60,325 nt of DNA from assembly GCA_035691305.1 (NCBI GenBank), contig DASSJF010000015.1, positions 1 to 60,325 of the forward strand, read 5' to 3'. The first letter of the stretch is position 1. Every line of letters starts with the position of its first letter. The position numbers were made by a program, and so were the translations under genes. Under the pieces are notes generated by a model that made no database searches, had not been told where the DNA came from, and was given only the letters and a program-made list of their open reading frames with translations. Positions 28,328 to 41,850 of this stretch are shown piece by piece. Source of the stretch: a bacterium. GTDB lineage: Bacteria; Sysuimicrobiota; Sysuimicrobiia; Sysuimicrobiales; Segetimicrobiaceae.

Positions 28328-29380
28328 CTATCCCGTCGGGACGTATCCCCGCGCTTTGTCCACCACGTTGAGCAGCGGCCTGCCCTCGTGCCACCGCCTG
28401 AAATTTTCGACGAAGAGTCCGGAGATGACGGCGGCCCATCCCTGAAAGTCGCCCGACATGTGCGGGGAGACGATGACGCCCGGTAGCTCCCAGAGGGGAT
28501 GATCGGGCGGCAGAGGTTCGGTCGCAAAGACGTCCGGGGCCGCGCCGGCGATCCGCCGAGACCGGAGCGCCTCCACCAGCGCGGCCTCGTCCACCACCGC
28601 CCCCCGCCCGACGTTGATGACGCGCGCCGCGGGCTTCATCCGCGCGAGCGCGGCCGCGCCGAAGAGGCCGCGGGTCTCGGAGGTGAGCGGAAGGGAGAGC
28701 ACGACGTAATCGGCTCCGGGCAGGATCGCGTGAAGCTCGTCGATCGCCCCGACGCGCTCGAAGGCGGCGTCGGGACCGCCGGCCGAGGATTCCCGCGCCG
28801 CGGCCGGCCGGGCGCGGCGGGCGACGCCGATCACGCGCATCCCGGCGGCGCGGAGGAGTCTTCCGATCTCGCGGCCGATGCTGCCGGCCCCGACGACGAT
28901 CGCGGTTTTGCCGTCGATGCGCTCGGTCTCCCGGTGCAGCCACTCGTGCCTGCGCTGCAGGTCGAACGTGCGCGGCATATCCTTCGCGAACGCCAGCACG
29001 AGCCCGAGTACGTACTCGGCGATGGCGCGGTCGAAGACGCCGCCGGAGTTCGTGAGGACGACGTCGCTGTGGACGAGCTCGGGAAAGAGCAGCGGATCGA
29101 CGCCGGCGCCGCCGTGGTGGATCCAGCGGAGGCTGCGTGCGTGCGACCAGGCGTCGCGCAGCATTCCGGAACGGAAGTCGGCCACGAACAGGACCTGCGC
29201 GCCATCGAGCGCCGCGCGCAGCTCTTCGGTCGAGACGGCGTACCGGAGATCGGCACGCTCCGCCACCGGTTCGAGGCCGGCGGGCCGGTTCGTACCGTAG
29301 AGGACGACCGCGACCGGGCGCGAGCGGCCGTCGGACCCGGCGGTGCGGTCGCCGGGTCCGGACGTCACCTGCGCGCTCAC
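28328..29380 (-). CDS. D-isomer-specific 2-hydroxyacid dehydrogenase
   Basis: A 350-residue NAD(P)-dependent dehydrogenase. Rossmann motif GAGSIG (164-169) and the catalytic triad R259 (NVGRGAVV), E288 (FATEPLP) and H307 (SPHMSG) are present. An Arg cluster (VARRARPAA) after the second strand suggests NADP may be accepted. It interconverts a D-2-hydroxy acid and a 2-keto acid. The GTG start is one base after the stop of the peptide-binding protein gene. It is the last gene of the 12-gene operon, so it probably reduces or oxidises the keto/hydroxy-acid end product. Confidence 0.87.
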   Translation of the reverse strand: MSAQVTSGPGDRTAGSDGRSRPVAVVLYGTNRPAGLEPVAERADLRYAVSTEELRAALDGAQVLFVADFRSGMLRDAWSHARSLRWIHHGGAGVDPLLFPELVHSDVVLTNSGGVFDRAIAEYVLGLVLAFAKDMPRTFDLQRRHEWLHRETERIDGKTAIVVGAGSIGREIGRLLRAAGMRVIGVARRARPAAARESSAGGPDAAFERVGAIDELHAILPGADYVVLSLPLTSETRGLFGAAALARMKPAARVINVGRGAVVDEAALVEALRSRRIAGAAPDVFATEPLPPDHPLWELPGVIVSPHMSGDFQGWAAVISGLFVENFRRWHEGRPLLNVVDKARGYVPTG

Positions 29381-29381
29381 G

Positions 29382-31085
29382 TTAGGGTTTGCCGTTCCCT
29401 ATATAAATGAAGGGCGGCATGTCCGCCTTTGAGGGGCGTGACCACGAAACGAAACCGTACTTGTTGGTCTTGTCGATGCTCCCCTTGACCCACGGCTTCC
29501 ACAGCTGCGTGACCGTCGGATGCCACAGGAACACCGCGGCGGGGTCGCGCACCAGAACGTCCTCGGCGCGCCGGTACATCGCGCAGCGCTGCGCGTCGCC
29601 CATGGTCGAGTTGCCCTGCATGACGGCCTTGTCGTAGTCCGCGTTCGACCACGGGTGCCGCCCGCCGCTCTTGTAGATGTTCATGAAGTTACTGGCGTCG
29701 GCGTAGTCGTACTCCCACGGAATCAGCACGAGCGGCAGGTCGTACTTGTTGAGCCGGTCCATGAACAGCTTCCGCTCCACATTCTGCACTCCGATGTCGA
29801 CGCCGAGGTTCTGCTTCAGCATTGCCTGGATGGCTTCGCCCGCCGCCTGGATCGTCGGCGACGCGGCGCGGAGGTCAAGGTCGTATTTCGGGAAGCCGCG
29901 GCCGTCCGGGAACCCGGCCTCCGCGAGCAACCGTTTGGCCGCCGCCGGATCATACGGCTGCGCGTCCTTCAGCCTCGCGGGCTGCGCGCAGTGAAAGCCC
30001 GGCGGCAACATGCCGTAGGCCGGCACCGCCATGCCGCGGAGCACCGATTTGATGATGGCGTCACGGTCGATCGCCATTGCAAACGCCTTCCGCACCCGCG
30101 GATCCTTGAATGCCGTCTGGCCGCCGCCGAAGGCGACCCACCAGGTCTGGAAGTAGGGCCAGACGTGCGCCTCGCGCTTGAGGCGCGGATCGCTCTGGAT
30201 GCGCGCGAGGTCCGACGGGCCGAGCGGACCCTCGTAGATCCAGGGGATCGCGTCGACCTCGTTCGCGAGGTACGCGGGGAAGAACGACTGGTCCTGGCCG
30301 ATCTTGTAAACGATCCGCTCGAGATATGGCTTGCGAACGCCGGCGTATTGAGGATTTGCCACGAACACGAGCTGCTTATCCCGCTCCCACGACGCCAGCT
30401 TGAATGGGCCCGAAGACACCGCGGTGTCGGGCGCCTGCGACCAGGGGTCGCCGGCCTTGGAGACCACGTGCTCGGGCACGACGTACAAATCGCTCAAGAG
30501 CATGAGCAGGTACGGCGTCGGCTCGGCGGTCGTGAGCTGGAGCGTGGTCGCGTTGACCGCGACCGCGCCGATGTCTTCGAGCTTGGCCTTGCCCTCGTTG
30601 GCTTCCTTGAAGTTCTTGAGCGCCGAGAAATACCACGCCACGTCGAAGCCGGTCTCCGGGTTGGCCATGCGACGGATCGTGTAGACGAAGTCGGACGCGG
30701 TCAGCGGCACGCCGTCCGACCAGCGCAGCCCCGGCCGCAGCGTGAACGTCCACGTCCGGCCGTCCTGCGAAACGGTCCAGCGGGACGCCGAGAGCGGCTT
30801 GATGTCCGAGTTATAGTCCTGCATCACCAGCGGATCGCTCATCAGGCCCGGCATCCACTGGCCTTTCTGGACGGTCTTGCTCCAGTCGAGGTACGTCCCC
30901 TCGCGGCCGATCAGCGTGAGCACCTGTTTGGACGGCGGGGCGGCGTCGGCCGGAAGCGCCACGCCCACCGAGTTCACGGTGGCGGCGCCGACGGCCGGAC
31001 CGTACCCCGGGCCGAAGACCGCGAGGACGATGAGAACGCCGGCTGCCACCCACCGGCTCAAGGGACGATCACCTATGTGACGCAT
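29382..31085 (-). CDS. Dpp/Opp-type ABC transporter substrate-binding protein
   Basis: A 567-residue family-5 extracellular solute-binding protein. The N-terminal hydrophobic segment (WVAAGVLIVLAVFGPGYG, ~12-29) is a signal peptide with no lipobox Cys. Landmarks are LRPGLRWSDGVPLTASDFVYTI, the SSGPFKLASWERD segment and VRKAFAMAIDRDAI. ATG 31085 is chosen because GGGGGAGG lies upstream. Such proteins capture peptides, nickel chelates, opines or other amphiphilic nitrogen compounds. It is co-transcribed with two permeases but no ATPase gene. Confidence 0.88.
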   Translation of the reverse strand: MRHIGDRPLSRWVAAGVLIVLAVFGPGYGPAVGAATVNSVGVALPADAAPPSKQVLTLIGREGTYLDWSKTVQKGQWMPGLMSDPLVMQDYNSDIKPLSASRWTVSQDGRTWTFTLRPGLRWSDGVPLTASDFVYTIRRMANPETGFDVAWYFSALKNFKEANEGKAKLEDIGAVAVNATTLQLTTAEPTPYLLMLLSDLYVVPEHVVSKAGDPWSQAPDTAVSSGPFKLASWERDKQLVFVANPQYAGVRKPYLERIVYKIGQDQSFFPAYLANEVDAIPWIYEGPLGPSDLARIQSDPRLKREAHVWPYFQTWWVAFGGGQTAFKDPRVRKAFAMAIDRDAIIKSVLRGMAVPAYGMLPPGFHCAQPARLKDAQPYDPAAAKRLLAEAGFPDGRGFPKYDLDLRAASPTIQAAGEAIQAMLKQNLGVDIGVQNVERKLFMDRLNKYDLPLVLIPWEYDYADASNFMNIYKSGGRHPWSNADYDKAVMQGNSTMGDAQRCAMYRRAEDVLVRDPAAVFLWHPTVTQLWKPWVKGSIDKTNKYGFVSWSRPSKADMPPFIYIGNGKP

Positions 31086-31140
31086 CACGGTTCGCCTCCC
31101 CCCCAATGTCGATCCGCGTCGGGCGTCCGGGCCCGGCGGG

Positions 31141-32055
31141 CTACTGCTTCAACGCGCGGGGGTCCAACACATCGCGGACCCCGTCGCCGAGCAGCGTGAA
31201 CCCCGCCATCGTGACCGCGATCGTCAGCGACGGAAACAGCGCAAGATGCCAATAGTAGCGGATGTTGGTGACGCCTTCGCCGACCATTTGCCCCCACGAC
31301 GGCGTCGGGGCGCGCACGCCGAGGCCGAGAAACGAGAGCGCGGCCTCGGTGAAGATCGCCTGCGGGATGCCGAGCGTCACCGCGACGACGATCGGCGCGA
31401 GGATGTTCGGCAGCACGTGGCGCGTGACGACCGACACTTCGCCCGCGCCCCCGGCCCGCGCCGCCTCGACGTACTCGCGCTCGCGCTCCCGCAGGCACTG
31501 CGCGCGCGTGAGGCGGCAGATTGGGATCCACGCGTGGAAGCTGATCGCCAGCAAAATGTTGCCGAGGCCCGGGCCCAGCACGACCATGATGAGGAGCGCG
31601 AACAGCAGTTGCGGAAACGCGGTCAGCGTATCGACGAGGCGCATGATGAGAAAGTCGGTCCGGCCGCCGAGCACGCCGGCCGCGAGCCCGAGCGGGAGGC
31701 CGACCGCGAGCGCGATGGCCTGGGCCGTGAACCCCACGGCCAGCGACACGCGAGCACCGTAGACGATCCGGGTGTAGAAGTCGCGGCCGATGGCGTCTGT
31801 TCCGAGCCAGTGGGCGTTGGACGGGAATTGGTACGCTTCCCCGAAATTGGCGCGGTCGTACGGGCCGGGCGTGATCCAGGGCGCCGCGAGCGCGAGGGAG
31901 ATCAGGAAGGCGACGACGACGGCGCCGCCCATTGCCATCCGATTGCGACGCAGCCGGCGCAGCCGGCCGCGGCGACCGGCGGGCGCCGGTGCGCCCGGGC
32001 GGCCGCCGCGTGCGATCACCGGGGAAGTGCCGAGGCCCGGGACGGACGCGCTCAT
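31141..32055 (-). CDS. Dpp-type ABC permease (DppC/OppC-like)
   Basis: A 304-residue inner-membrane permease. It has an Arg-rich cytoplasmic N-terminus (RRGRLRRLRRNRMAM), one TM (~40-60), then the five-TM core with the EAA loop (EYVEAARAGGAGEVSVVTRHVLPNI). WLGTDAIGRDFYTRIVYGARVSL is the usual DppC signature. It forms a heterodimer with the DppB-like protein encoded just upstream on the same strand. Confidence 0.9.
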   Translation of the reverse strand: MSASVPGLGTSPVIARGGRPGAPAPAGRRGRLRRLRRNRMAMGGAVVVAFLISLALAAPWITPGPYDRANFGEAYQFPSNAHWLGTDAIGRDFYTRIVYGARVSLAVGFTAQAIALAVGLPLGLAAGVLGGRTDFLIMRLVDTLTAFPQLLFALLIMVVLGPGLGNILLAISFHAWIPICRLTRAQCLREREREYVEAARAGGAGEVSVVTRHVLPNILAPIVVAVTLGIPQAIFTEAALSFLGLGVRAPTPSWGQMVGEGVTNIRYYWHLALFPSLTIAVTMAGFTLLGDGVRDVLDPRALKQ

Positions 32056-32082
32056 CGGGGGGCGCTCACAGATCCGGACGCA

Positions 32083-33003
32083 TCACGCATATCGGATGCG
32101 CGGGTCGGCGAAGAGATACAACAGGTCACTGACGAGATACATGAGGCTGACCAGCAACGCGGCGAGCAGCGCGAGGCCCATGATCATCGGATAGTCGCGG
32201 TCGTAGACGCTCGTGACGAAGTAGCGACCGAGCCCCGGCACGCGGTAGATTCCCTCGACGAAGATCGATCCGGTGAGGAGATCCGGAAACAGCGGTCCGA
32301 TAACGGTGAGGAGCGGGACGAGGGCGTTGCGCAGCACGTGCCTGAGGACGACGCGCCGCGTCGCGAGGCCCTTCGCGCGGGCGGTGCGGACGTGGTCCGC
32401 GCCCAGGACCTCGAGGACGCTGACGCGAGTATAGCGTGCGACGAGCCCGAGAGGTGCGAGGCAGTAGGTCAGGGTCGGGAGGATCCACTGGCGCGGGGCC
32501 TCCCACCCGCCGGCCGGCAGCCATCCCAGCATCGTACTGAAGAGCAGAATCAACAGGCTGCCCAGCACGAAGTGCGGCACGACGAGGCCGAACACCGCAA
32601 CACCCGTCGTGAGGTAGTCCACAACGGTGTTCTGGCGGAGCGCGGCCGCGACCCCCAGCGACAGCCCGCCCGCAAGCGCGATCGCGAGCGCCATCCCGCC
32701 GAGGTGCATCGTCACCGGCCAGACGCGGCTCAGCAGGTGCACCACGGACTCGCCCGGGCTTTGATACGAAACGCCGAAGTCGAGATGGGCGACGTTCCAC
32801 ACGAACCGGACATATTGTTCCGAGAGCGGCCGGTCGAGCCCGTAGCTGCGCAGGATATTGGCCTTGCTCGCGGGCGGAAGCGGCATCTTGTCCTCATCGA
32901 ACGGCCCGCCCGGGATCGTGTGCATGACGATGAAGACGAAAAGCGAGATGATGAGCAACGTGCCGAGGATGGCGACAGTGCGGACGGCGAGATAGCGGCC
33001 CAT
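32083..33003 (-). CDS. Dpp-type ABC permease (DppB/OppB-like)
   Basis: A 306-residue permease with the MGRYLAVRTVAILGTLLIISLFVF first TM and six TMs in all. The LGLDRPLSEQYVRFVWN-type periplasmic loop is represented by SYGLDRPLSEQYVRF. The EAA loop is DHVRTARAKGLATRRVVLRHVLRNA. Pairs with the DppC-like permease. ATPase subunits (DppD/F) are missing from the operon and must be supplied from elsewhere. Confidence 0.9.
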   Translation of the reverse strand: MGRYLAVRTVAILGTLLIISLFVFIVMHTIPGGPFDEDKMPLPPASKANILRSYGLDRPLSEQYVRFVWNVAHLDFGVSYQSPGESVVHLLSRVWPVTMHLGGMALAIALAGGLSLGVAAALRQNTVVDYLTTGVAVFGLVVPHFVLGSLLILLFSTMLGWLPAGGWEAPRQWILPTLTYCLAPLGLVARYTRVSVLEVLGADHVRTARAKGLATRRVVLRHVLRNALVPLLTVIGPLFPDLLTGSIFVEGIYRVPGLGRYFVTSVYDRDYPMIMGLALLAALLVSLMYLVSDLLYLFADPRIRYA

Positions 33004-33006
33004 GGC

Positions 33007-34485
33007 CTACTCTGGAAGGTGGATGCGGCGGGTCAGGCCGGCCGCGAGTTCGCTCAAAGCTGTGAGCGGGGCCCGCAGTGCCGAGGCCACGGACTGGCCG
33101 TCGCGGGTGGTGCGTTCGATCCGTGCGTAGGCGGCCGCGGCTTCATCGGCCAGCTTGGCTTCATCTAAATGCAGCGGCCGCCCGTGCTCGGCGAGGAGCC
33201 GGCCGCCGACGTAGACCCGCTCCAGGCTGCCGGCAAAGCCCGCGCCCGAGTAGGCGAGCTGATCAAGCCAGTCCGGCCCGGCGTAGCAGCCCGCGGCGGC
33301 GGGATTGACCACGAGGAAGTCCGCCCCCAGGCCGGCTTCGAGCCGGCCCGCGACGCCGCCGAACCCCAGGGCGGACGCCGCGTGTTCGGTCGCGGTCCAC
33401 CAGGCCTCCGCCGGGGTGACCCACCGCGTGGACGGCTCGTCGGGCCGGCGCAGCGTCACGCCGACGCGCAGCGACGCAAGCCAGTCCTGAGACCCGCCGC
33501 AGTTGAACGCGTCCGTGCCGAAGGCGACGCGGACCTTTGCGTCGAGCGCCGCGCGCAGGTCGAAGTACCCGGCCCCGGTGGCGAGGTTGCTGCACGGATT
33601 GTGCACGACCGTCGCCCCCGCCCCGGCGATGCGCGCGCGGTCGGCGGCGTCGAGATGCACACAGTGCGCGAGCGTGGTGCGGGGCCCGAGCAGGCCCGCC
33701 GATTCGAGAACCCCAAGCGGATCTCCGCCGCGCCGCTGCACCCGGGACTCGAGAAGATGGGTGTGGATCGCCAGCCCGTGCTCCTTGGCCAGCGTCGAGA
33801 GGCCGGCGAGCAGCTCGGGTGTGCAACGCTCGGCGGTCGACGGCCCCACGAGCGTCCGCACGAATCCGCCGCCCCGCGTCCGGCGAACGAGCGACCGCAT
33901 CGTCTCGAGCAGGTCCGCGGCGGCACGCGGCGCCCAGCGATCGGCGGCGGCGATCATCGCGTGAAGCGCCGGGTCGAGAATCGGAAGCGAGTCCGCGATC
34001 GTCCGGTCGCCGATCTGCGGGGCAAGCGCCACGCGCAGCCCTGTCTGCTCGTACGCCTCGACCGCGGCCTCGACGTGGTCCGCCGCAAGGCGGGCGTGGT
34101 CGAGGATCACCGTGACCCCGTTCCGCAGCGCGTCCGCCGCATGCAGGCGGGCCGCGAGCGCGCCGTCGGCCGGGGTCATGCCGCCCGCGTACGCGATCGC
34201 GCGGGGAAGCCACGGCTCCAGCGTGTCGTCGTTCATCGCGTGGCGGCAGACCTGCCCGTACGAGTGCGAGTGGGCGTTCACGAGTCCGGGCAGCACGAGA
34301 CGGCCGGAGGCGTCGAGCACCTGCCGGGCGGCCGCGAAGGCGTCTACGGGGAGGCGGCCTCGAGGCTCGAGCGCGGTGATGCGTCCGCCCTCCACGAGCA
34401 CGTCCAGCGCCTTGAACGACGGACGCGCGTCGCCGGGGGCGCGGGTGAAGACGGATCCGCCGGCGATCAGCAGGTCCGCGGTCAT
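33007..34485 (-). CDS. ATZ/TRZ-type amidohydrolase, operon copy 1
   Basis: A 492-residue amidohydrolase-superfamily enzyme of the cytosine-deaminase/atrazine-chlorohydrolase branch. Metal ligands: H72/H74 (NAHSHSYG), His in AIHTHLLES, His in TLAHCVHLD, Asp in FGTDAFNCGG. Family members deaminate or dechlorinate purines, pyrimidines and s-triazines. The extra C-terminal ~90 residues include helices (KLADEAAAAYARIERTTRDGQ) not needed for the core. It is 3 bp from the DppB-like gene and in operon with a second amidohydrolase and a flavin monooxygenase, so a heterocyclic nitrogen substrate is likely; identity unknown. Confidence 0.87.
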   Translation of the reverse strand: MTADLLIAGGSVFTRAPGDARPSFKALDVLVEGGRITALEPRGRLPVDAFAAARQVLDASGRLVLPGLVNAHSHSYGQVCRHAMNDDTLEPWLPRAIAYAGGMTPADGALAARLHAADALRNGVTVILDHARLAADHVEAAVEAYEQTGLRVALAPQIGDRTIADSLPILDPALHAMIAAADRWAPRAAADLLETMRSLVRRTRGGGFVRTLVGPSTAERCTPELLAGLSTLAKEHGLAIHTHLLESRVQRRGGDPLGVLESAGLLGPRTTLAHCVHLDAADRARIAGAGATVVHNPCSNLATGAGYFDLRAALDAKVRVAFGTDAFNCGGSQDWLASLRVGVTLRRPDEPSTRWVTPAEAWWTATEHAASALGFGGVAGRLEAGLGADFLVVNPAAAGCYAGPDWLDQLAYSGAGFAGSLERVYVGGRLLAEHGRPLHLDEAKLADEAAAAYARIERTTRDGQSVASALRAPLTALSELAAGLTRRIHLPE

Positions 34486-34522: not shown

Positions 34523-35521
34523 TCAAGAGACCGCGACCGCGCCTTTGAGTTTCGGCATGACGTCGGTGACGCAGCGCTCGAGTTGTCCGCGCTGGTCCGG
34601 CGAGGTGAACCGCATCACGACGGTGTTGCAGCCGGCCTCGACGAACGCCATCACCTTGTCGACAACCGCCGCGGGAGAGCCGAAGGCCAACCAGGAGTCC
34701 AGCTTCTGCGGGCTGATCCTTCCGGTCCCGTAATAGTGGTCCAGGAACTCGACCGCTTCGCGCTTCGCCTTGGCCTCATCGTCGTTGATGTTGACCATCA
34801 GGTGCAGGCTGTTGTGCGTGACCTCGTGCGCGCGCCCGTATTCCGCCGCGTAGTCCTGGACCTGGCGCCAGCGCGCGCGGAAGTCCGCGGGCGGCGTGCC
34901 GTCCGTCTGCCACCCGTCGGACAGCCGCGCGACGCGCCGCATCGCGCGCTCCGTCACGGCGGGATCGGGGCTCGTGGGGTTGACCGCCAGCACGATCGGA
35001 ATCCGGCGTTCGGGCCGCGGCAGCAGATCGACGCGGTCGAAGCGATAGTACTTCCCGTGGTGGGTCACCGGGCCCGACCAAAACGCGCGCAGCAGCGCGA
35101 TGCCCTCCTCGAGGCGGCCGATCCGCTCCTTGGACGCAACGCCCATCGCCGCCAGTTCCGCGGCGAACTGCGGCCCCATCTTATCGCTCCCCCCGGCGCA
35201 GACCGCGAGGATCGTTCGGCCGCCCGACGCGAGATCGAGGCTGGCCCACTGCAGCGCGAACACGAGCGGATGCCGCAGCGGAAAACTCGCGAGGCAGATC
35301 GTACCGAGCTTCAGGCGGCGCGTGCGTCCCGCGATCGCCGACAGCGTGACGATCGCCTCGAGGCGCGGCTTCGAGGTGAAGTTGTCCCCGACCCACACGG
35401 AGTCGAAGACGCCGGAGGCTTCGGCCTGATCCGCGGTTTCGAAGAGCACCCGCGGGTCGAGGCCGAAGAGGACGGCCCGGTTGGGCAGGCTGATTCCGAA
35501 CTCAACTTGCCGGCGCGCCAT
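34523..35521 (-). CDS. LLM-class flavin-dependent oxidoreductase
   Basis: A 332-residue TIM-barrel luciferase-like monooxygenase or F420-dependent reductase. The N-terminal strand EFGISLPNRAVLFGLDPRVLFETADQAEASG and the RRLKLGTICLASFPLRHPLVFA segment are characteristic. The enzyme uses reduced FMN or F420 to oxygenate or reduce small molecules. Its ATG directly follows the stop of the upstream amidohydrolase. In this catabolic operon a ring-opening oxygenation (as RutA does for pyrimidines) would make sense, but this is inference. Confidence 0.85.
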   Translation of the reverse strand: MARRQVEFGISLPNRAVLFGLDPRVLFETADQAEASGVFDSVWVGDNFTSKPRLEAIVTLSAIAGRTRRLKLGTICLASFPLRHPLVFALQWASLDLASGGRTILAVCAGGSDKMGPQFAAELAAMGVASKERIGRLEEGIALLRAFWSGPVTHHGKYYRFDRVDLLPRPERRIPIVLAVNPTSPDPAVTERAMRRVARLSDGWQTDGTPPADFRARWRQVQDYAAEYGRAHEVTHNSLHLMVNINDDEAKAKREAVEFLDHYYGTGRISPQKLDSWLAFGSPAAVVDKVMAFVEAGCNTVVMRFTSPDQRGQLERCVTDVMPKLKGAVAVS

Positions 35522-36979
35522 TCATCGGCTCCTCGGTTCGACTTGGCCGAGCGGAGGAAACGCGGGCGGGCACATCTCCTCCGCGGCCCGGCCGCTGCCC
35601 TCCCACTCCGGCACGTCCGCCCAGAGACGCTCGCCCATGCGCTGCACGTCCGCCGACAGCCGCTCCCCGTCGACGCCGGCGACGGCGCCGGACGCCACGA
35701 CGTGCCGGCCGTCCACCCAGACGTGTTCCGCGGGCCCGCCCGCGGCATAGTGAATGAGGCTGCGCACCGGATCGAGCACCGGCCCGACGCGCACCCGGTC
35801 CAGACGGTAGGCCGCGATGTCGGCCCGCGCGCCCGGAGCGAGGCGGCCGAGGTCGTCCCGCCCGAGCGCCGCGGCGGCGCCCAAGGTCGCCGCGTTGATC
35901 ACGTCGGCGGGCTGCCCCGCCGTGAAGTCGCCCTCCACGAGCTTGCACACGTACGAGGCCCACCGCATCTCGTCGACGATGTCGCGCGGGCACGTGTCCG
36001 TGCCGATCGCGACGTTGACGCCGGCGCGCCGGTAGCGGTCGAACGAGTGAAGCGACCAGCCGCGCCGGGCCAGCGCGAGCGGGCAGTGCGCGACGTGGGC
36101 GCCGGACCCCGCGAGCAGATCCAGGTCGATCCGGCCCGGCGCCGGGGCGAGCGGGTGGTGGTCGAGAAAAATGGCGTGGCCCAGAATCGTCCGCGGCGTC
36201 AGCGCGCCGTTGGCGTGGAGCCACCGGATGGGCGTCAGCTGCGTCCGCCGGACCATCTCCGTGAACTCGAACAACCCCTGGGCGGCGTGGATCTGCACGC
36301 GGACCCCGAGATCCTCCGCCGCGCGCATGGTCGCGGCGAGGAGCGCGCCGCTGCAGGTGTCGGCGGCGTGCGGGCAGAGCATCCCGGTGACGAGCCCGCC
36401 TCCGTCGCGCGAGGCCTCCTCGACGAACCCGCACGCCTCCCGCAGGCCGGCCTCGCCTCGAGCCTCGTCCCAGCGGTACTCGATCCGGCCGGGCGTCGCT
36501 TCGACGTACACCGCGCTCGCGTAGCGCGGGCCCGCGTACAGACGCACGCCGATCTCGCGCGCGGCGGCGATCAACTCGCGCCCGCCCTGCCCGACGTTGA
36601 CGACCGTGGTCGAGCCGTGCAGCACGCACTCGGCCAGGTACTGCCGGGCGCCGAGCGCCGGATCTTCCCGCTGCGCGATGTGGCGCCGTCCCGGCCGCGC
36701 CGTCTGCACGTTCATGTATCCGGTGTTGAAGGCGTCCGCCCGTCCGCAGTCCAGGATCAGCCGGCCGCCCGGCTCCGCCCCGCCGTGCGTGTGGACGTTC
36801 ACGAACCCCGGCAGCACGAGACAGCGTCCGGTGTCCACGACCGTGTCGACCCGGCCGGAGTACTCGCGGCCGGCGTATGTGATCGTGCCGCCGTCGAAGA
36901 CGACGACGCCGTTAGGGACCAGCCGGTGGCGCCGTCCGTCGAAGGCCAGGACCGCCTCGCCTTTGACCGCGGTCGTCAT
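35522..36979 (-). CDS. ATZ/TRZ-type amidohydrolase, operon copy 2
   Basis: A 485-residue amidohydrolase of the same broad branch as the protein at 33007-34485, clearly diverged from it. Ligands: H63/H65 (NVHTHGG), His in RVQIHAAQG, His in ILGHAIFLDHH, Asp in IGTDTCPRD. It probably hydrolyses an amino or amide substituent on a ring. Having two such deaminases plus a monooxygenase in one operon suggests sequential deaminations of one substrate. Start ATG 36979 lies 4 bp after the permease stop. Confidence 0.86.
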   Translation of the reverse strand: MTTAVKGEAVLAFDGRRHRLVPNGVVVFDGGTITYAGREYSGRVDTVVDTGRCLVLPGFVNVHTHGGAEPGGRLILDCGRADAFNTGYMNVQTARPGRRHIAQREDPALGARQYLAECVLHGSTTVVNVGQGGRELIAAAREIGVRLYAGPRYASAVYVEATPGRIEYRWDEARGEAGLREACGFVEEASRDGGGLVTGMLCPHAADTCSGALLAATMRAAEDLGVRVQIHAAQGLFEFTEMVRRTQLTPIRWLHANGALTPRTILGHAIFLDHHPLAPAPGRIDLDLLAGSGAHVAHCPLALARRGWSLHSFDRYRRAGVNVAIGTDTCPRDIVDEMRWASYVCKLVEGDFTAGQPADVINAATLGAAAALGRDDLGRLAPGARADIAAYRLDRVRVGPVLDPVRSLIHYAAGGPAEHVWVDGRHVVASGAVAGVDGERLSADVQRMGERLWADVPEWEGSGRAAEEMCPPAFPPLGQVEPRSR

Positions 36980-36983
36980 CGGC

Positions 36984-37820
36984 TCACAGCCCGCCGACGG
37001 GTCTGTCCGACGCGCGCCACGAGAAGAGCCGCTCGAGCAGTACGACGGCGAGGTAGAGGACCACGCCGAGCACCGAGATCAAGAACAGCGCCGAGAACAG
37101 GAAGTCCGTCCGCAGCGTCTGGGTCGAGTACAGGATGACGTAGCCGAGTCCGGAGTTCGCGCCGACCCATTCGCCGATGATCGCGCCGATCACCGCGAGC
37201 GCGATCGAGATCTTGAGCCCGGCGAAGAAGTACGGCAGCGCGTTCGGGAACTGCAGCTTGGTAAAGACCTGGACGCGCGACGCCGCGACCAGCCGCAGCA
37301 GATCGATCGCGTTCTCGTCCGTGGCCTTGAGGCCCTGCACCGTGTTCACCACGGTCGGGAAGAAACAGATCACCGCGGTGATGACCACCTTCGGCGTGAT
37401 CCCGGACCCGAACCAGATGATGAACAGCGGCGCGATCGCCACCTTGGGAATGGTCTGCGACGCGATCAACAGCGGATAGAACGCCTTCTCGACGAGGCGC
37501 GAATTCACGATCAGGAGGGCCGCGGCCACCGCGATCGCGTTGCCGATGACGAAGCCGAGGGTGATCTCGTACGTCGTCGTCCACGTGTGGCGCATCATCA
37601 GCGGGAAGTACCGCAGCGTCGTCCTCAGAATGACGAGCGGGCTCGGCAGGATGAAGTCGCTGACGTGGCGCGTATCGACGACGACCTGCCACGCGACCAG
37701 CAGCAGCAGGAAGAAGATCGCCGCGGGGATGTTGCCGGCGACCGCCGCGGCCCCCTCCCGCAGCGCGCCGGCCGGCGCGCGCCGTCCGCCCTCACGTGCC
37801 TCGCGCGCCGGAGCGCTCAC
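36984..37820 (-). CDS. ABC permease (SsuC/TauC/ThiX type)
   Basis: A 278-residue, six-TM binding-protein-dependent permease. The EAA loop reads ENAIDLLRLVAASRVQVFTKLQFPNALPYF. The LPSPLVILRTTLRYFPLMMRHTWTT segment is typical of Ssu/Tau/Thi-type permeases. It overlaps the ATPase stop by 4 bp. Together with its ATPase and Tat-exported binding protein it forms a complete importer for a sulfonate-, taurine- or pyrimidine-like solute. Confidence 0.9.
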   Translation of the reverse strand: MSAPAREAREGGRRAPAGALREGAAAVAGNIPAAIFFLLLLVAWQVVVDTRHVSDFILPSPLVILRTTLRYFPLMMRHTWTTTYEITLGFVIGNAIAVAAALLIVNSRLVEKAFYPLLIASQTIPKVAIAPLFIIWFGSGITPKVVITAVICFFPTVVNTVQGLKATDENAIDLLRLVAASRVQVFTKLQFPNALPYFFAGLKISIALAVIGAIIGEWVGANSGLGYVILYSTQTLRTDFLFSALFLISVLGVVLYLAVVLLERLFSWRASDRPVGGL

Positions 37821-38611
37821 CTCGCGTCGTCCCCGGACGGATCGCCCTCGAGCTCTTTCAGGAGGATCCGGGAGTATTCAATGAACCCGGGCGACAGGCG
37901 CGTCTCCTGGGTCCGCGGCCGCGGCAGGTCGATCTGGTGGATCGAGCGCACGCGGCCCGGGCGCGGCGTAAACGTCACGACCGTGTCGGAGAGCAGGACC
38001 GCCTCCGGGATGCTGTGCGTGACGAAGAGCACCGTCTTGCGGGTCCGCTGCCAGATGCGGAGGAGTTCGACGCCCATCCGGTCGCGCGTGATCGCGTCGA
38101 GGGCTCCGAACGGCTCGTCCATCAGGAGAATACGCGGGTCGAACGATAGGGCGCGCGCGATCGCCACCCGCTGCTGCATCCCGCCCGACAGCTCGCCGGG
38201 ACGGTGGGCCTCGAAGCCGGAGAGGCCGACCAGGTCGAGAAATTGACGCGCCCGCCGGCGGCGCTCGTCGCGGCCGAGCCCCTGAATCTCGAGCATCAGC
38301 GCCACGTTGTCGAGCGAGGTGCGCCACGGGAACAGGAGCGGCGTCTGAAACACGAAACCGAAGCTCCGGCGCGCCCGGGCGGTGTGGGCGTCGCCGCCGA
38401 ACACGGTAACGCGTCCGGAGGACGGCGGGAGCAGGTCGGCGACGATCTTGAGCAGCGTCGACTTGCCGCACCCGGACGGCCCGATAATCGAGACGAACTG
38501 GCCTTCGCCGACGCCGAAGCCGACGTCGCGCAGCGCCTCGACGCGGCGCGCGCTGCCCTCCGCGCCGTACGTCAGGCCGACGCGGTCGAGCTCGATCGCG
38601 TTCGCCATCAC
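37817..38611 (-). CDS. ABC transporter ATPase (SsuB/TauB/ThiZ type)
   Basis: A 264-residue ATPase: Walker A GPSGCGKST, signature LSGGMQQRVAIARAL, Walker B ILLMDEPFGALD, and switch His in VLFVTHSIPEA. It energises the permease encoded 3' to it. The start ATG is 3 bp after the binding-protein stop. Sequence resembles nitrate/sulfonate/thiamine-precursor importers. Confidence 0.93.
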   Translation of the reverse strand: MMANAIELDRVGLTYGAEGSARRVEALRDVGFGVGEGQFVSIIGPSGCGKSTLLKIVADLLPPSSGRVTVFGGDAHTARARRSFGFVFQTPLLFPWRTSLDNVALMLEIQGLGRDERRRRARQFLDLVGLSGFEAHRPGELSGGMQQRVAIARALSFDPRILLMDEPFGALDAITRDRMGVELLRIWQRTRKTVLFVTHSIPEAVLLSDTVVTFTPRPGRVRSIHQIDLPRPRTQETRLSPGFIEYSRILLKELEGDPSGDDAR

Positions 38612-38614
38612 CCC

Positions 38615-39664
38615 TTACTTCTGCGGCGCGATGTCGGTGAAGATGGTCTTCGGATCGAAGTCGTTCTGGATCATCCCGCCGGCGCGGAACGTGTTGTAGG
38701 TCTGCGTCCAGCCGGCGAGCGTCTGGTAGCCAAAGCCGTGCGCCCGCGCGTCCGGGCTCCAGACCAGGCTCTTGATGGCCGGCCACTTCGCGGCCTCGAG
38801 CTTCCGGTCGGTCTCCGGCACCGCCTCCGCGAGCGCCGCGATCGCCTCGTCCACGTGGTCGAGCGTATAGGTCCAGGACTTGAACGTCGCCAGCGCCATG
38901 CGCCTGGCGAGATCCCGGTTGCCGTTCAGCAAGCCCTCGCTGGTGAAGATCGTCTGCCCGTAGCTCTTCACACGGTAGTCGGCGTAGTTGAGGATGTTGA
39001 GCGGGAGGCCGCGGCTCTGGATCACCACGACCTCGTTCGTCAGCAGCAGACCCGCGGCGTCGATGCTGCCGGCGATCAGCGGGCCCACCGACGCGGTCAC
39101 GTTCACGACGGTGATACGGGCCGGGTCGAGGTTGTTGATCTTGAGGAACGCGTTCCAGAACGCGTGGACCGTGCTCGCCGGATTGTCGCCCACCTTCTTC
39201 CCGTACAGGTCCGCGGGCTTCATGATGTTCTTGCTCTTAAGGGACACGAGCACCGTCGGGCTGTTCTGCAGCAGCACGCCGAGCGAGACGACGGGAATCT
39301 TCTGCGCCCGTCCTACCGTGACCGCGTCCGCGACGGCGACGCCGAACATGCTGTCTCCCGCCCCGACGAGCTGCACGGCCGCGGCCGAGCCGGTGCCGGG
39401 CAGGATGCTCAGGTCGATGCCTTGATCCGCGTAGTAGCCCTTCTTCTTCCCGAGGTAGTAGGGCGCGTGCTCGGCGTTGGGATTGAAGTTGAGGCGCAGC
39501 GTCGCCCTCGCCAGCCCGGCCGCGCGGGCCTCCGTGCGGCTGCCGAGGAGCCGCGCCCCGACGGCCCCGGATGCGGCGGCAAGCGCTCCGGCGCGGAGCA
39601 GCGTCCGGCGGGTCACGCGTCCGCCTTCGCTCGTGGCGCCGCGCCTCGAAAACGTCTCATCCAT
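38615..39664 (-). CDS. NMT1/THI5-like ABC substrate-binding protein, Tat-exported
   Basis: A 349-residue binding protein. The N-terminus carries a twin-arginine signal (TRRTLLRAGALAAASGAVGA, ~18-37), so it is exported folded. The mature N-terminus (LRLNFNPNAEHAPYYLGKKKGYYADQGIDL) is the classic NMT1/THI5-like/SsuA fold start. Known ligands in the family include hydroxymethylpyrimidine precursors, sulfonates, nitrate and riboflavin. With a pyrimidine- or triazine-type deaminase set in the operon, a small nitrogen heterocycle is a reasonable guess. Confidence 0.9.
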   Translation of the reverse strand: MDETFSRRGATSEGGRVTRRTLLRAGALAAASGAVGARLLGSRTEARAAGLARATLRLNFNPNAEHAPYYLGKKKGYYADQGIDLSILPGTGSAAAVQLVGAGDSMFGVAVADAVTVGRAQKIPVVSLGVLLQNSPTVLVSLKSKNIMKPADLYGKKVGDNPASTVHAFWNAFLKINNLDPARITVVNVTASVGPLIAGSIDAAGLLLTNEVVVIQSRGLPLNILNYADYRVKSYGQTIFTSEGLLNGNRDLARRMALATFKSWTYTLDHVDEAIAALAEAVPETDRKLEAAKWPAIKSLVWSPDARAHGFGYQTLAGWTQTYNTFRAGGMIQNDFDPKTIFTDIAPQK

Positions 39665-39685: not shown

Positions 39686-40873
39686 TTATTGAAGTTGGGA
39701 GCGGATCAGCTCGGCGAGGACCCGGGCCTCCGCGACCACCTGCGAGACCGGTACGAAGTCGGCGCCGGTCGGCCACACGCCGCCGGTTGCGCCGTACATC
39801 ACGGTCGGCACACCCAGCCGGCAGGGCCCGCCGGCGTCGAAGGTGCCACGCCCGTACACGATCTCCGGATCCGCGCCGGCGACCGCGCGGTGCGCGGCGT
39901 GGAACGCGGTCACCCAGTCGAGATGCGGATCGACAAGCGCCGGCCACATCAAGACGCCGGTCTCCACGGAGACCTCGTAGGGCGCCATGTCGCCGATCGC
40001 TCGGCGCACCTCGTCGGTGGCCACTTCGGGGTCGTCGCCGGGCAGGAGGCGCCGGTCGACGGTGAGGAACGCCTCCGCCGGCAGCGTGTGCGGGGCGACC
40101 GGCTCGAAGCGCATCTTGTAGACGATCGCGTGCCGGCCGCCGAGGATCGGATGCCGGTCGGCCCACTTGAGCCGCCGCAGCCGGGCGGTGATTTCGACGG
40201 CCGCGTCGATCGCGCCGAGGCCCTCTTCCGGCGTGCTCGAGTGCGCGGCCCGCCCCCGGACGTGCACGTTGACGTCGACACGGCCGCGGTTGCCGAGCGA
40301 AAGTTTCAGCCCCGTCCCGATCTGAATCACGCCGAACGACGGCTTGGGATCGAGCGCGGCGATGATCGCCTCCGAGCAGGCGTGGCTGCTGCGGCCCTCG
40401 TTGTTGACGGCCCAGTAGAGCGTACCCCGGAGCTCTCCGCCCGCCTCGGCCAGCATCTTGAGAACGGCAAGCATGACGGCCTGATGCGCTTTGTTCTGGC
40501 TGACGCCCTGGCCGAAGACGGCGGGCTCGGGGCAGCCGTACGCCGCGGCGTTGCCGATCTTGCCGGAGAACGGTGCGTCCATCAGATTGTGGTGCTGCGC
40601 CGGCGTGTAGTTCTGAATCAACAGCGTCCGGCCCGAGCGGCCGGCGCCGAGCCGCGCGACGAGATTGTTGCGCGGAACGTCGAGAAGATCGTAAACGCCG
40701 ATCGCCGCCAGTTCCGGGCGCACCACGTTCTGGACGTAGTGGACGAGCTTCGGGTCGTCCGGCTCCATCAGCGTGTCGAAGCCGAGCGGCACGTCGGTCG
40801 GGACGCGGGCGAGCCGCGACAGAACATCGACGAGGTAGCGCTCGTCCAGAGGCGCGCGGGCGGTGTTCGGCAT
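39686..40873 (-). CDS. M20-fold protein lacking the metal ligands
   Basis: A 395-residue homolog of ArgE/DapE/carboxypeptidase-G2 (M20). The dimerisation domain is intact (GNRGRVDVNVHVRGRAAHSS with H211, PEEGLGAID). All the metal-binding motifs are altered. The GHxD box is QNYTPAQ (87-93), the SDxKG box is SQNKAH (125-130), the EEE box is NNEGR (157-161), the EPT-type Glu is IQIGTG, and the final His loop is GGVWPTGAD. It keeps the fold and length, so it is not a decaying gene. It may be metal-independent, use other residues, or serve as a binding subunit. Confidence 0.75.
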   Translation of the reverse strand: MPNTARAPLDERYLVDVLSRLARVPTDVPLGFDTLMEPDDPKLVHYVQNVVRPELAAIGVYDLLDVPRNNLVARLGAGRSGRTLLIQNYTPAQHHNLMDAPFSGKIGNAAAYGCPEPAVFGQGVSQNKAHQAVMLAVLKMLAEAGGELRGTLYWAVNNEGRSSHACSEAIIAALDPKPSFGVIQIGTGLKLSLGNRGRVDVNVHVRGRAAHSSTPEEGLGAIDAAVEITARLRRLKWADRHPILGGRHAIVYKMRFEPVAPHTLPAEAFLTVDRRLLPGDDPEVATDEVRRAIGDMAPYEVSVETGVLMWPALVDPHLDWVTAFHAAHRAVAGADPEIVYGRGTFDAGGPCRLGVPTVMYGATGGVWPTGADFVPVSQVVAEARVLAELIRSQLQ

Positions 40874-40887
40874 CGTGACCCCCTACT

Positions 40888-41850
40888 TCATCGCGGCCGT
40901 CCGCCGATCCGGCCGGCGTGGGCCATCGCGCCGATCAAATTGAGCATGAGGCGGACGCTGACGCGGCAGGTCAGGTCGCCGCCGGCGAGGTCCGGCATGA
41001 TCTCCACCACGTCGAACCCCGCGACGCGGCCGCGCGCCGCGACCCCGCGCAGCACGCCGCTCGCTTCATCGTAGGTGAGTCCGCCGAACGCCGGGCTGGC
41101 GACCGCCGGGGCGGCCGACGGGTCGAGACCGTCCACGTCGAGCGTAATGAAGTAACGGTCCGCGGCGGGCACTTTCGCCAGCGCGGCTTCGACGCCGGTA
41201 CGATGGATCTCGGCGGCGCCGATCAGCACCGAGCCGTACGCGCGCGCGTCGTCGAACTCCACCCGCCGCCCGCTGCCGAACCCGCGGAGACCGATCTGCG
41301 CCATGCCCCGGACCCACCGCATCTCGGACGCCCGCCGCATCGGGCTGCTGAGTCCGTCCCGGATCCCCTCCCGCTCGTCGCGCCAGTCGATGTGCGCGTC
41401 GATCTGCACGACGCAGATCGGCGGCTGCTCGGCGTAGGCGCGCAGTACGGGAATCGGCACGGAGTCGTCGCCGCCCAACACGAACGGCACCGCGCCCCGC
41501 GCCAGGATCGCCTTGACCGCCGCCTCCGCCGCGGGCGGCGCTTCGTCCCAGTGTCCCGCGACCATCGCCACGTCACCGCAGTCGACGATCCGGATGTTGC
41601 GGCCGGCGAACAGGTCGTCGCCGAAGTCGAAATCGTAGTTGGTCGCGTACCACGGGACGTACCGCATCGACTGCTCGCGCAGCGCCGCGGGCGCCCGGCT
41701 CTGGGACGCCGCCGTCTGCAGATCGTACGGGACGCAGAACGGCACGCCGAGCACGGCGATGTCGGCGTCCAGCGCGCCTAGGTCCGGGCAGCGGGGCACG
41801 TCGAGAAAGGTCGGACGGCCGGCGGGGACCGGCGACAGACGGAAAGCCAT
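40888..41850 (-). CDS. Ureohydrolase (agmatinase/arginase family)
   Basis: A 320-residue binuclear-Mn hydrolase fold; ATG 41850 follows AAGGA at good spacing. Ligands: GGDDS (126-130, Asp129 where most members have His), DAHID (151-155), LDVDGLDP (237-244). The family hydrolyses guanidino groups to urea or removes formimino groups. The His-to-Asp change occurs in some divergent members and may alter metal affinity. It is first in the 12-gene operon, so it may act on a guanidino or amidino side group of the imported compound. Confidence 0.85.
   Translation of the reverse strand: MAFRLSPVPAGRPTFLDVPRCPDLGALDADIAVLGVPFCVPYDLQTAASQSRAPAALREQSMRYVPWYATNYDFDFGDDLFAGRNIRIVDCGDVAMVAGHWDEAPPAAEAAVKAILARGAVPFVLGGDDSVPIPVLRAYAEQPPICVVQIDAHIDWRDEREGIRDGLSSPMRRASEMRWVRGMAQIGLRGFGSGRRVEFDDARAYGSVLIGAAEIHRTGVEAALAKVPAADRYFITLDVDGLDPSAAPAVASPAFGGLTYDEASGVLRGVAARGRVAGFDVVEIMPDLAGGDLTCRVSVRLMLNLIGAMAHAGRIGGRPR

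Follow-up and report, generated by a model that had tools for sequence, protein, structure and literature searches.

The window (the whole stretch of DNA analyzed here, 60,325 nucleotides) encodes a protein of the M20 metallopeptidase fold in which other residues stand in for the catalytic Glu and for each of the five metal ligands. A sequence-only reading had presented it as one odd protein. The ligand loss is real, but the protein is not unique: it belongs to a clade sharing the loss, this clade has a half-stripped sister group, and its genes have a conserved neighbor encoding an oxidoreductase of the LLM (luciferase-like) class. We favor, at about even confidence, the explanation that the protein is a repurposed, metal-free enzyme acting next to the LLM-catalyzed step.

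Family assignment and the former metal site

The gene runs uninterrupted from an ATG to a stop codon at positions 39686 to 40873 of the minus strand, encoding 395 amino acids with zero internal stops. Pfam models M20_dimer (PF07687, 2.8e-12) and Peptidase_M20 (PF01546, 2.8e-7) both match the protein above their cutoffs. Homology spans the catalytic and dimerization domains in an hhalign comparison (100%, E = 1.6e-51) between a profile of 11 sequences from the two clades described below (A and B), including the window protein, and six canonical M20 enzymes from its own and another genome. The sequence-only reading had described a full-length, in-frame protein of the M20 fold, and these results bear it out. 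When the PDB was searched with the clade profile, DapE (7uoi, 4e-23) and carboxypeptidase G2 (CPG2; 1cg2, 5e-17) were retrieved. The best NCBIfam match is YgeY (NF009555, 2.8e-24), a family of selenium-metabolism-linked hydrolases, yet at 85.7 bits it lies below the curated cutoff of 321, and a YgeY-like sequence from Escherichia coli (L091) has the full ligand set and falls outside the clade in the tree. AlphaFold models from alignments of four and three sequences reached pLDDT values of only 53.5 and 50.2; in a Foldseek search with the former, a weak model, M20 proteins head the list at a TM score of about 0.35. The top Foldseek match, 5-nitroanthranilate aminohydrolase (PDB entries 5k8m to 5k8p), is also a profile match (2.7e-8) and combines the M20 fold with unusual chemistry; it differs in that its structures are titled with bound Mn or Zn, and its sequence is not closely related.

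In M20 enzymes, the site 1 zinc is bound by a His, an Asp, and a Glu, and the other zinc shares this Asp and is further held by a second Glu and the last His; in DapE, the residues are H68, D101, and E164 for one zinc and D101, E136, and a later His for the other (PMC4012986). The general base is the Glu preceding the second-site Glu, and published work holds ligand and catalytic residues to be conserved across the family (PMC11511702). The window protein resembles carboxypeptidase G2, DapE, ArgE, and the aminoacylases over most of its length, including the dimerization domain and its His, but differs from them at every one of these positions. In the hhalign alignment, whose motifs are internally gap free, the first His is replaced by Y89, the Asp of the HxD motif by P91, the bridging Asp by Q126, the base Glu by G160, the site 2 Glu by R161, the site 1 Glu by I185, and the final His by P368. 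A MAFFT alignment of 41 sequences places the same replacements in the same columns. The codons of interest are as follows, with the basis of each assignment in parentheses.

40607..40609, minus strand: Y89, replacing the first His ligand; Tyr in 15/15 clade A and B sequences (alignments)
40592..40594, minus strand: H94, a new invariant His in clade A (conservation count)
40496..40498, minus strand: Q126 of the motif SQNK, replacing the bridging Asp ligand (alignments)
40397..40399, minus strand: E159 of the motif NNEG, invariant in clade A and opposite the Asp preceding the Glu-Glu pair (alignment, conservation count)
40394..40396, minus strand: G160, replacing the catalytic-base Glu (alignments)
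40391..40393, minus strand: R161, replacing the second-site Glu ligand (alignments)
40382..40384, minus strand: H164, invariant across both clades (conservation count)
40319..40321, minus strand: I185, replacing the first-site Glu ligand (alignments)
40241..40243, minus strand: H211, the dimerization-domain His, kept (alignment, conservation count)
40088..40090, minus strand: H262 of the motif PHTLP, invariant across both clades, where canonical M20 enzymes mostly have Asn or Ser (conservation count)
39770..39772, minus strand: P368, replacing the final His ligand (alignments)

The earlier claim that all M20 metal ligands are substituted is thus correct at every position. Profile-profile alignment does not restore the ligands: E159 aligns with the Asp before the Glu-Glu pair and not with a ligand. 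A by-eye alignment in which E159 was a surviving ligand was rejected, as hhalign sets this residue one position before the base. The dimerization His was said to survive, and H211 is indeed present in all 15 sequences of clades A and B, as well as in the 25 canonical sequences counted.

Relatives, selection, and new invariant residues

Clade A consists of 11 sequences lacking all five ligands, namely, the window protein and ten relatives 40 to 88% identical to it, from the window's own phylum and from Chloroflexota. Its members combine the ligand loss with the motifs SQNK, NxEGxSSH, and PHTLP, as the window protein does, with the variants SQAK (L067), SQCK (L068), TQHK (L023), and NAES (L011). 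Its sister, clade B, comprises four sequences (L024, L069, L012, and L075) in which the first His has become Tyr, the site 1 Glu has become Ile or Leu, and the base Glu has become Gly. Three positions are kept in clade B: the bridging position, now a Glu, the intact site 2 Glu, and the intact last His. In the 41-row tree, support is 100/99 for A plus B, 100/99 for A, and a less firm 94/70 for B; a quick tree calculated without the motif columns gives 93 for A plus B and 99 for A. Because clade B retains three ligands, the loss of site 1 apparently preceded that of site 2. On the simplest reading of these sequences, site 1 and the base would have been lost in the common ancestor and site 2 subsequently in clade A, although the direction of change is one that we infer.

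Two further proteins, L007 (G000:C26:67637-68512) and L089 (Chloroflexota genome G119), show the opposite pattern of loss: they keep the first His and the site 1 Glu but have replaced the last His, the bridging Asp, and the Glu-Glu pair, of which one Glu remains in L007. Since both fall outside the clade in the tree, M20 proteins seem to have lost part of their ligand set on more than one occasion.

Relatives are patchily distributed. In the window's phylum, they occur in 4/43 genomes, the window's own included, and in Chloroflexota in 5 of 400 sampled genomes (E ≤ 1e-28); by profile, 5/158 genomes of one Chloroflexota class and 4/29 of another carry them. Two of the Chloroflexota relatives were found through a genome scan. 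More distant relatives lie on Roseivivax and Roseovarius plasmids. Even within the window's genus, one genome (G023) carries the gene and another (G024) is without it, and this patchy distribution fits gain and loss. Viral contigs scanned for additional relatives or canonical M20 sequences yielded almost nothing. In the literature searched, which mostly excluded subscription journals, no report was found of M20 proteins lacking metal ligands or of M20-LLM pairs.

Measured against its 88%-identical counterpart from the same genus, the window copy has a dN/dS of 0.137, which indicates purifying selection; six operon neighbors range from 0.036 to 0.207. This value and the recurrence of the same losses in ten further sequences are hard to put down to chance or decay. 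At the old active site, Y89, Q93, H94, Q126, N157, E159, S162, S163, H164, and C166 are invariant in clade A, as are H262, R198, and D200 elsewhere. Mean entropy in clade A is 0.91 for the former His region, 0.81 for the Asp region, and 0.41 for the Glu-Glu region, against 1.15 overall, and these regions are more conserved than the remainder of the protein (Mann-Whitney P = 7e-4). The loop of the former last ligand is conserved no more than the clade A average. A site no longer in use would be expected to drift, and the new invariant set at the old active site speaks for repurposing over decay. The sequence-only reading had spoken of a repurposed metal-free enzyme or regulatory subunit; monophyly, purifying selection, and the new invariant residues support the first word well, and the interpretation as a whole is supported in part.

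Operon context and the LLM oxidoreductase

The M20-like gene is the second of an operon described earlier as tight, and the gaps from the arginase-family gene through the LLM gene are 14, 21, 3, -4, 4, and 0 bases. The genes are listed in operon order.

40888..41850, minus strand: arginase/agmatinase-family protein, the operon's first gene, predicted start (profile matches)
39686..40873, minus strand: M20-fold protein of 395 amino acids, lacking the five metal ligands (ORF, Pfam, alignments)
38615..39664, minus strand: NMT1/THI5-type solute-binding protein (profile match)
37817..38611, minus strand: ABC transporter ATPase (profile match)
36984..37820, minus strand: ABC transporter permease (profile match)
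35522..36979, minus strand: amidohydrolase, NCBIfam PRK06151 chlorohydrolase family, above cutoff (profile match)
34523..35521, minus strand: LLM-class oxidoreductase, whose relatives directly adjoin the M20-like gene elsewhere (profile searches, neighborhood)
33007..34485, minus strand: second amidohydrolase, TRZ/ATZ-deaminase type (profile match)
28328..33003, minus strand: further genes downstream, namely two Dpp/Opp-type permeases, an SBP_bac_5 protein, and a 2-hydroxyacid dehydrogenase (profile matches)

Neighbors at other loci include NMT1/SsuBC-type transporters, M24 peptidases, isochorismatase, xanthine-dehydrogenase-type genes, and UbiD. Neighbors of these kinds serve the uptake and dismantling of nitrogen-containing small molecules, often heterocycles, and LLM enzymes such as RutA open N-heterocycle rings. 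A heterodimer with a canonical M20 partner was considered and rejected, as no M20 gene was present among the other scanned operon genes in the window.

Two observations concern the arginase family. Arginases and agmatinases usually read GGDHS at a motif whose His is a Mn ligand; in both genus members (window positions 40888 to 41850, minus strand, and L025:8327-9289), the motif reads GGDDS, and the other ligand motifs appear intact. A cluster on Pararhizobium qamdonense plasmid p4 holds a canonical, ligand-complete M20 gene (L074, 31% identical to clade B member L024) with an agmatinase and a 5-guanidino-2-oxopentanoate decarboxylase, and so has an arginase-family neighbor, as in the window.

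Of 11 other genomes, 8 have an LLM gene immediately beside the M20-like gene (G043, G044, G109, G117, G213, G269, G531, and G028), where LLM density predicts 0.14 (P = 5e-14, treating loci as independent, which is true only in part). Four loci (L030, L031, L032, and L033) show a 4-base overlap between the LLM and M20-like frames, and the order of the genes varies; the M20-like start in L033 is the choice of the gene caller. Among 400 Chloroflexota genomes, the two closest LLM profile matches (G213 and G117) adjoin the M20-like gene, both having been rows of the profile. In the window and its genus, the M20-like and LLM genes share one operon, with four other genes between them. An LLM neighbor was not seen in G500 and G012 (contigs of <6 kb), in G530, or on the Roseobacter plasmids. 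In a Chloroflexaceae metagenome-assembled genome (L033:5500-6676, about 4x coverage), the LLM gene is split over two frames, probably through an assembly error.

The F420 ligase CofE was found in 11/13 carrier genomes, so the LLM partner could use flavin or F420. That the partners depend on F420 in all carriers is unsupported: no CofE was found for G213 or G269, and the scores of the LLM proteins fall short of the NCBIfam cutoffs.

Proposed role and its alternatives

In the favored explanation, a metal-free enzyme would have kept the M20 framework and, in the lid and dimerization domain, the segments that bind substrate (HSS, DRR, and DAG), with both zinc sites and the general base exchanged for Y89, Q93, H94, Q126, N157, E159, S162, S163, H164, C166, and H262. 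A small carboxylate- or amide-bearing ligand would most likely be bound at the dimer interface and undergo metal-less His/Tyr/Glu acid-base chemistry. This step would come one before or one after that of the LLM-class flavin/F420 oxidoreductase with which the gene travels, in a cluster that appears to import and degrade a compound containing nitrogen, which the gene neighborhood suggests is probably an N-heterocycle. The analysis shows the fold family, the ligand loss, the clade, the selection, and the linkage to LLM genes. Absence of metal is the likeliest reading of the substituted site; we likewise infer catalysis, the acid-base mechanism, and the class of substrate. The fuller account, in which a two-step loss of the metal site (a clade B stage, then clade A) led to an LLM-coupled, metal-free acid-base enzyme of an undescribed degradation pathway, is more tentative and falls somewhat short of even confidence.

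Counted against a metal-free enzyme is that strong conservation would equally fit a non-catalytic binding role. The protein might instead be a ligand-binding, substrate-delivery, or stabilizing subunit of the LLM oxidoreductase, an alternative we rate at about half the weight of the enzyme. Loss of every ligand and of the base, retention of the lid and dimer residues, and the conserved LLM pairing with its 4-base overlaps, an arrangement common among interacting proteins, would all suit such a partner; the pairing is also the one positive sign of a regulatory subunit, which is possible. However, four genes separate the pair in the window and its genus, the LLM proteins of G109 and G269 are of a different subtype (about 28 to 31% identical to the window's), and neither G530 nor the plasmid members have an LLM gene alongside. 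Moreover, pure binding would not require ten polar residues to stay invariant where catalysis once took place.

Slightly less probable is that the protein remains a metalloenzyme whose site, probably mononuclear, has been rebuilt from residues such as H94, H164, C166, E159, or H262. In clade A, the old site and its vicinity have acquired several invariant His, Cys, and Glu residues, and H94, H164, H262, and C166 could form another metal site. A one-metal ancestor is also plausible, because clade B keeps the Glu at the bridging position, the site 2 Glu, and the last His. Against this, clade B shares only H164 and H262, being without H94, E159, and C166, and the old last-His loop is of only average conservation in clade A. 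Least probable by far is a decaying gene or an annotation or assembly artifact, which losing every ligand could resemble: frames are full length in all 11 clade A sequences, dN/dS is low, and independent assemblies from different phyla show the same losses.

M20 enzymes are textbook two-metal hydrolases, and their ligands are regarded as fixed. Proteins of another family, M28, offer a likeness: nicastrin and the transferrin receptor have a peptidase fold, but their metal ligands are gone and their role is a different one. Because a small lineage of relatives shares the ligand loss, usually beside an LLM gene, what we see looks like a whole lineage rebuilt for new chemistry and not a dead gene. 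The half-stripped sister group and the fully stripped crown form a natural series on how metal can be lost without loss of use. Automatic "M20 metallo-hydrolase" labels, which the Roseobacter plasmid genes also bear, may be misleading about the chemistry of these genes' products, and the LLM pairing offers a concrete handle on their function.
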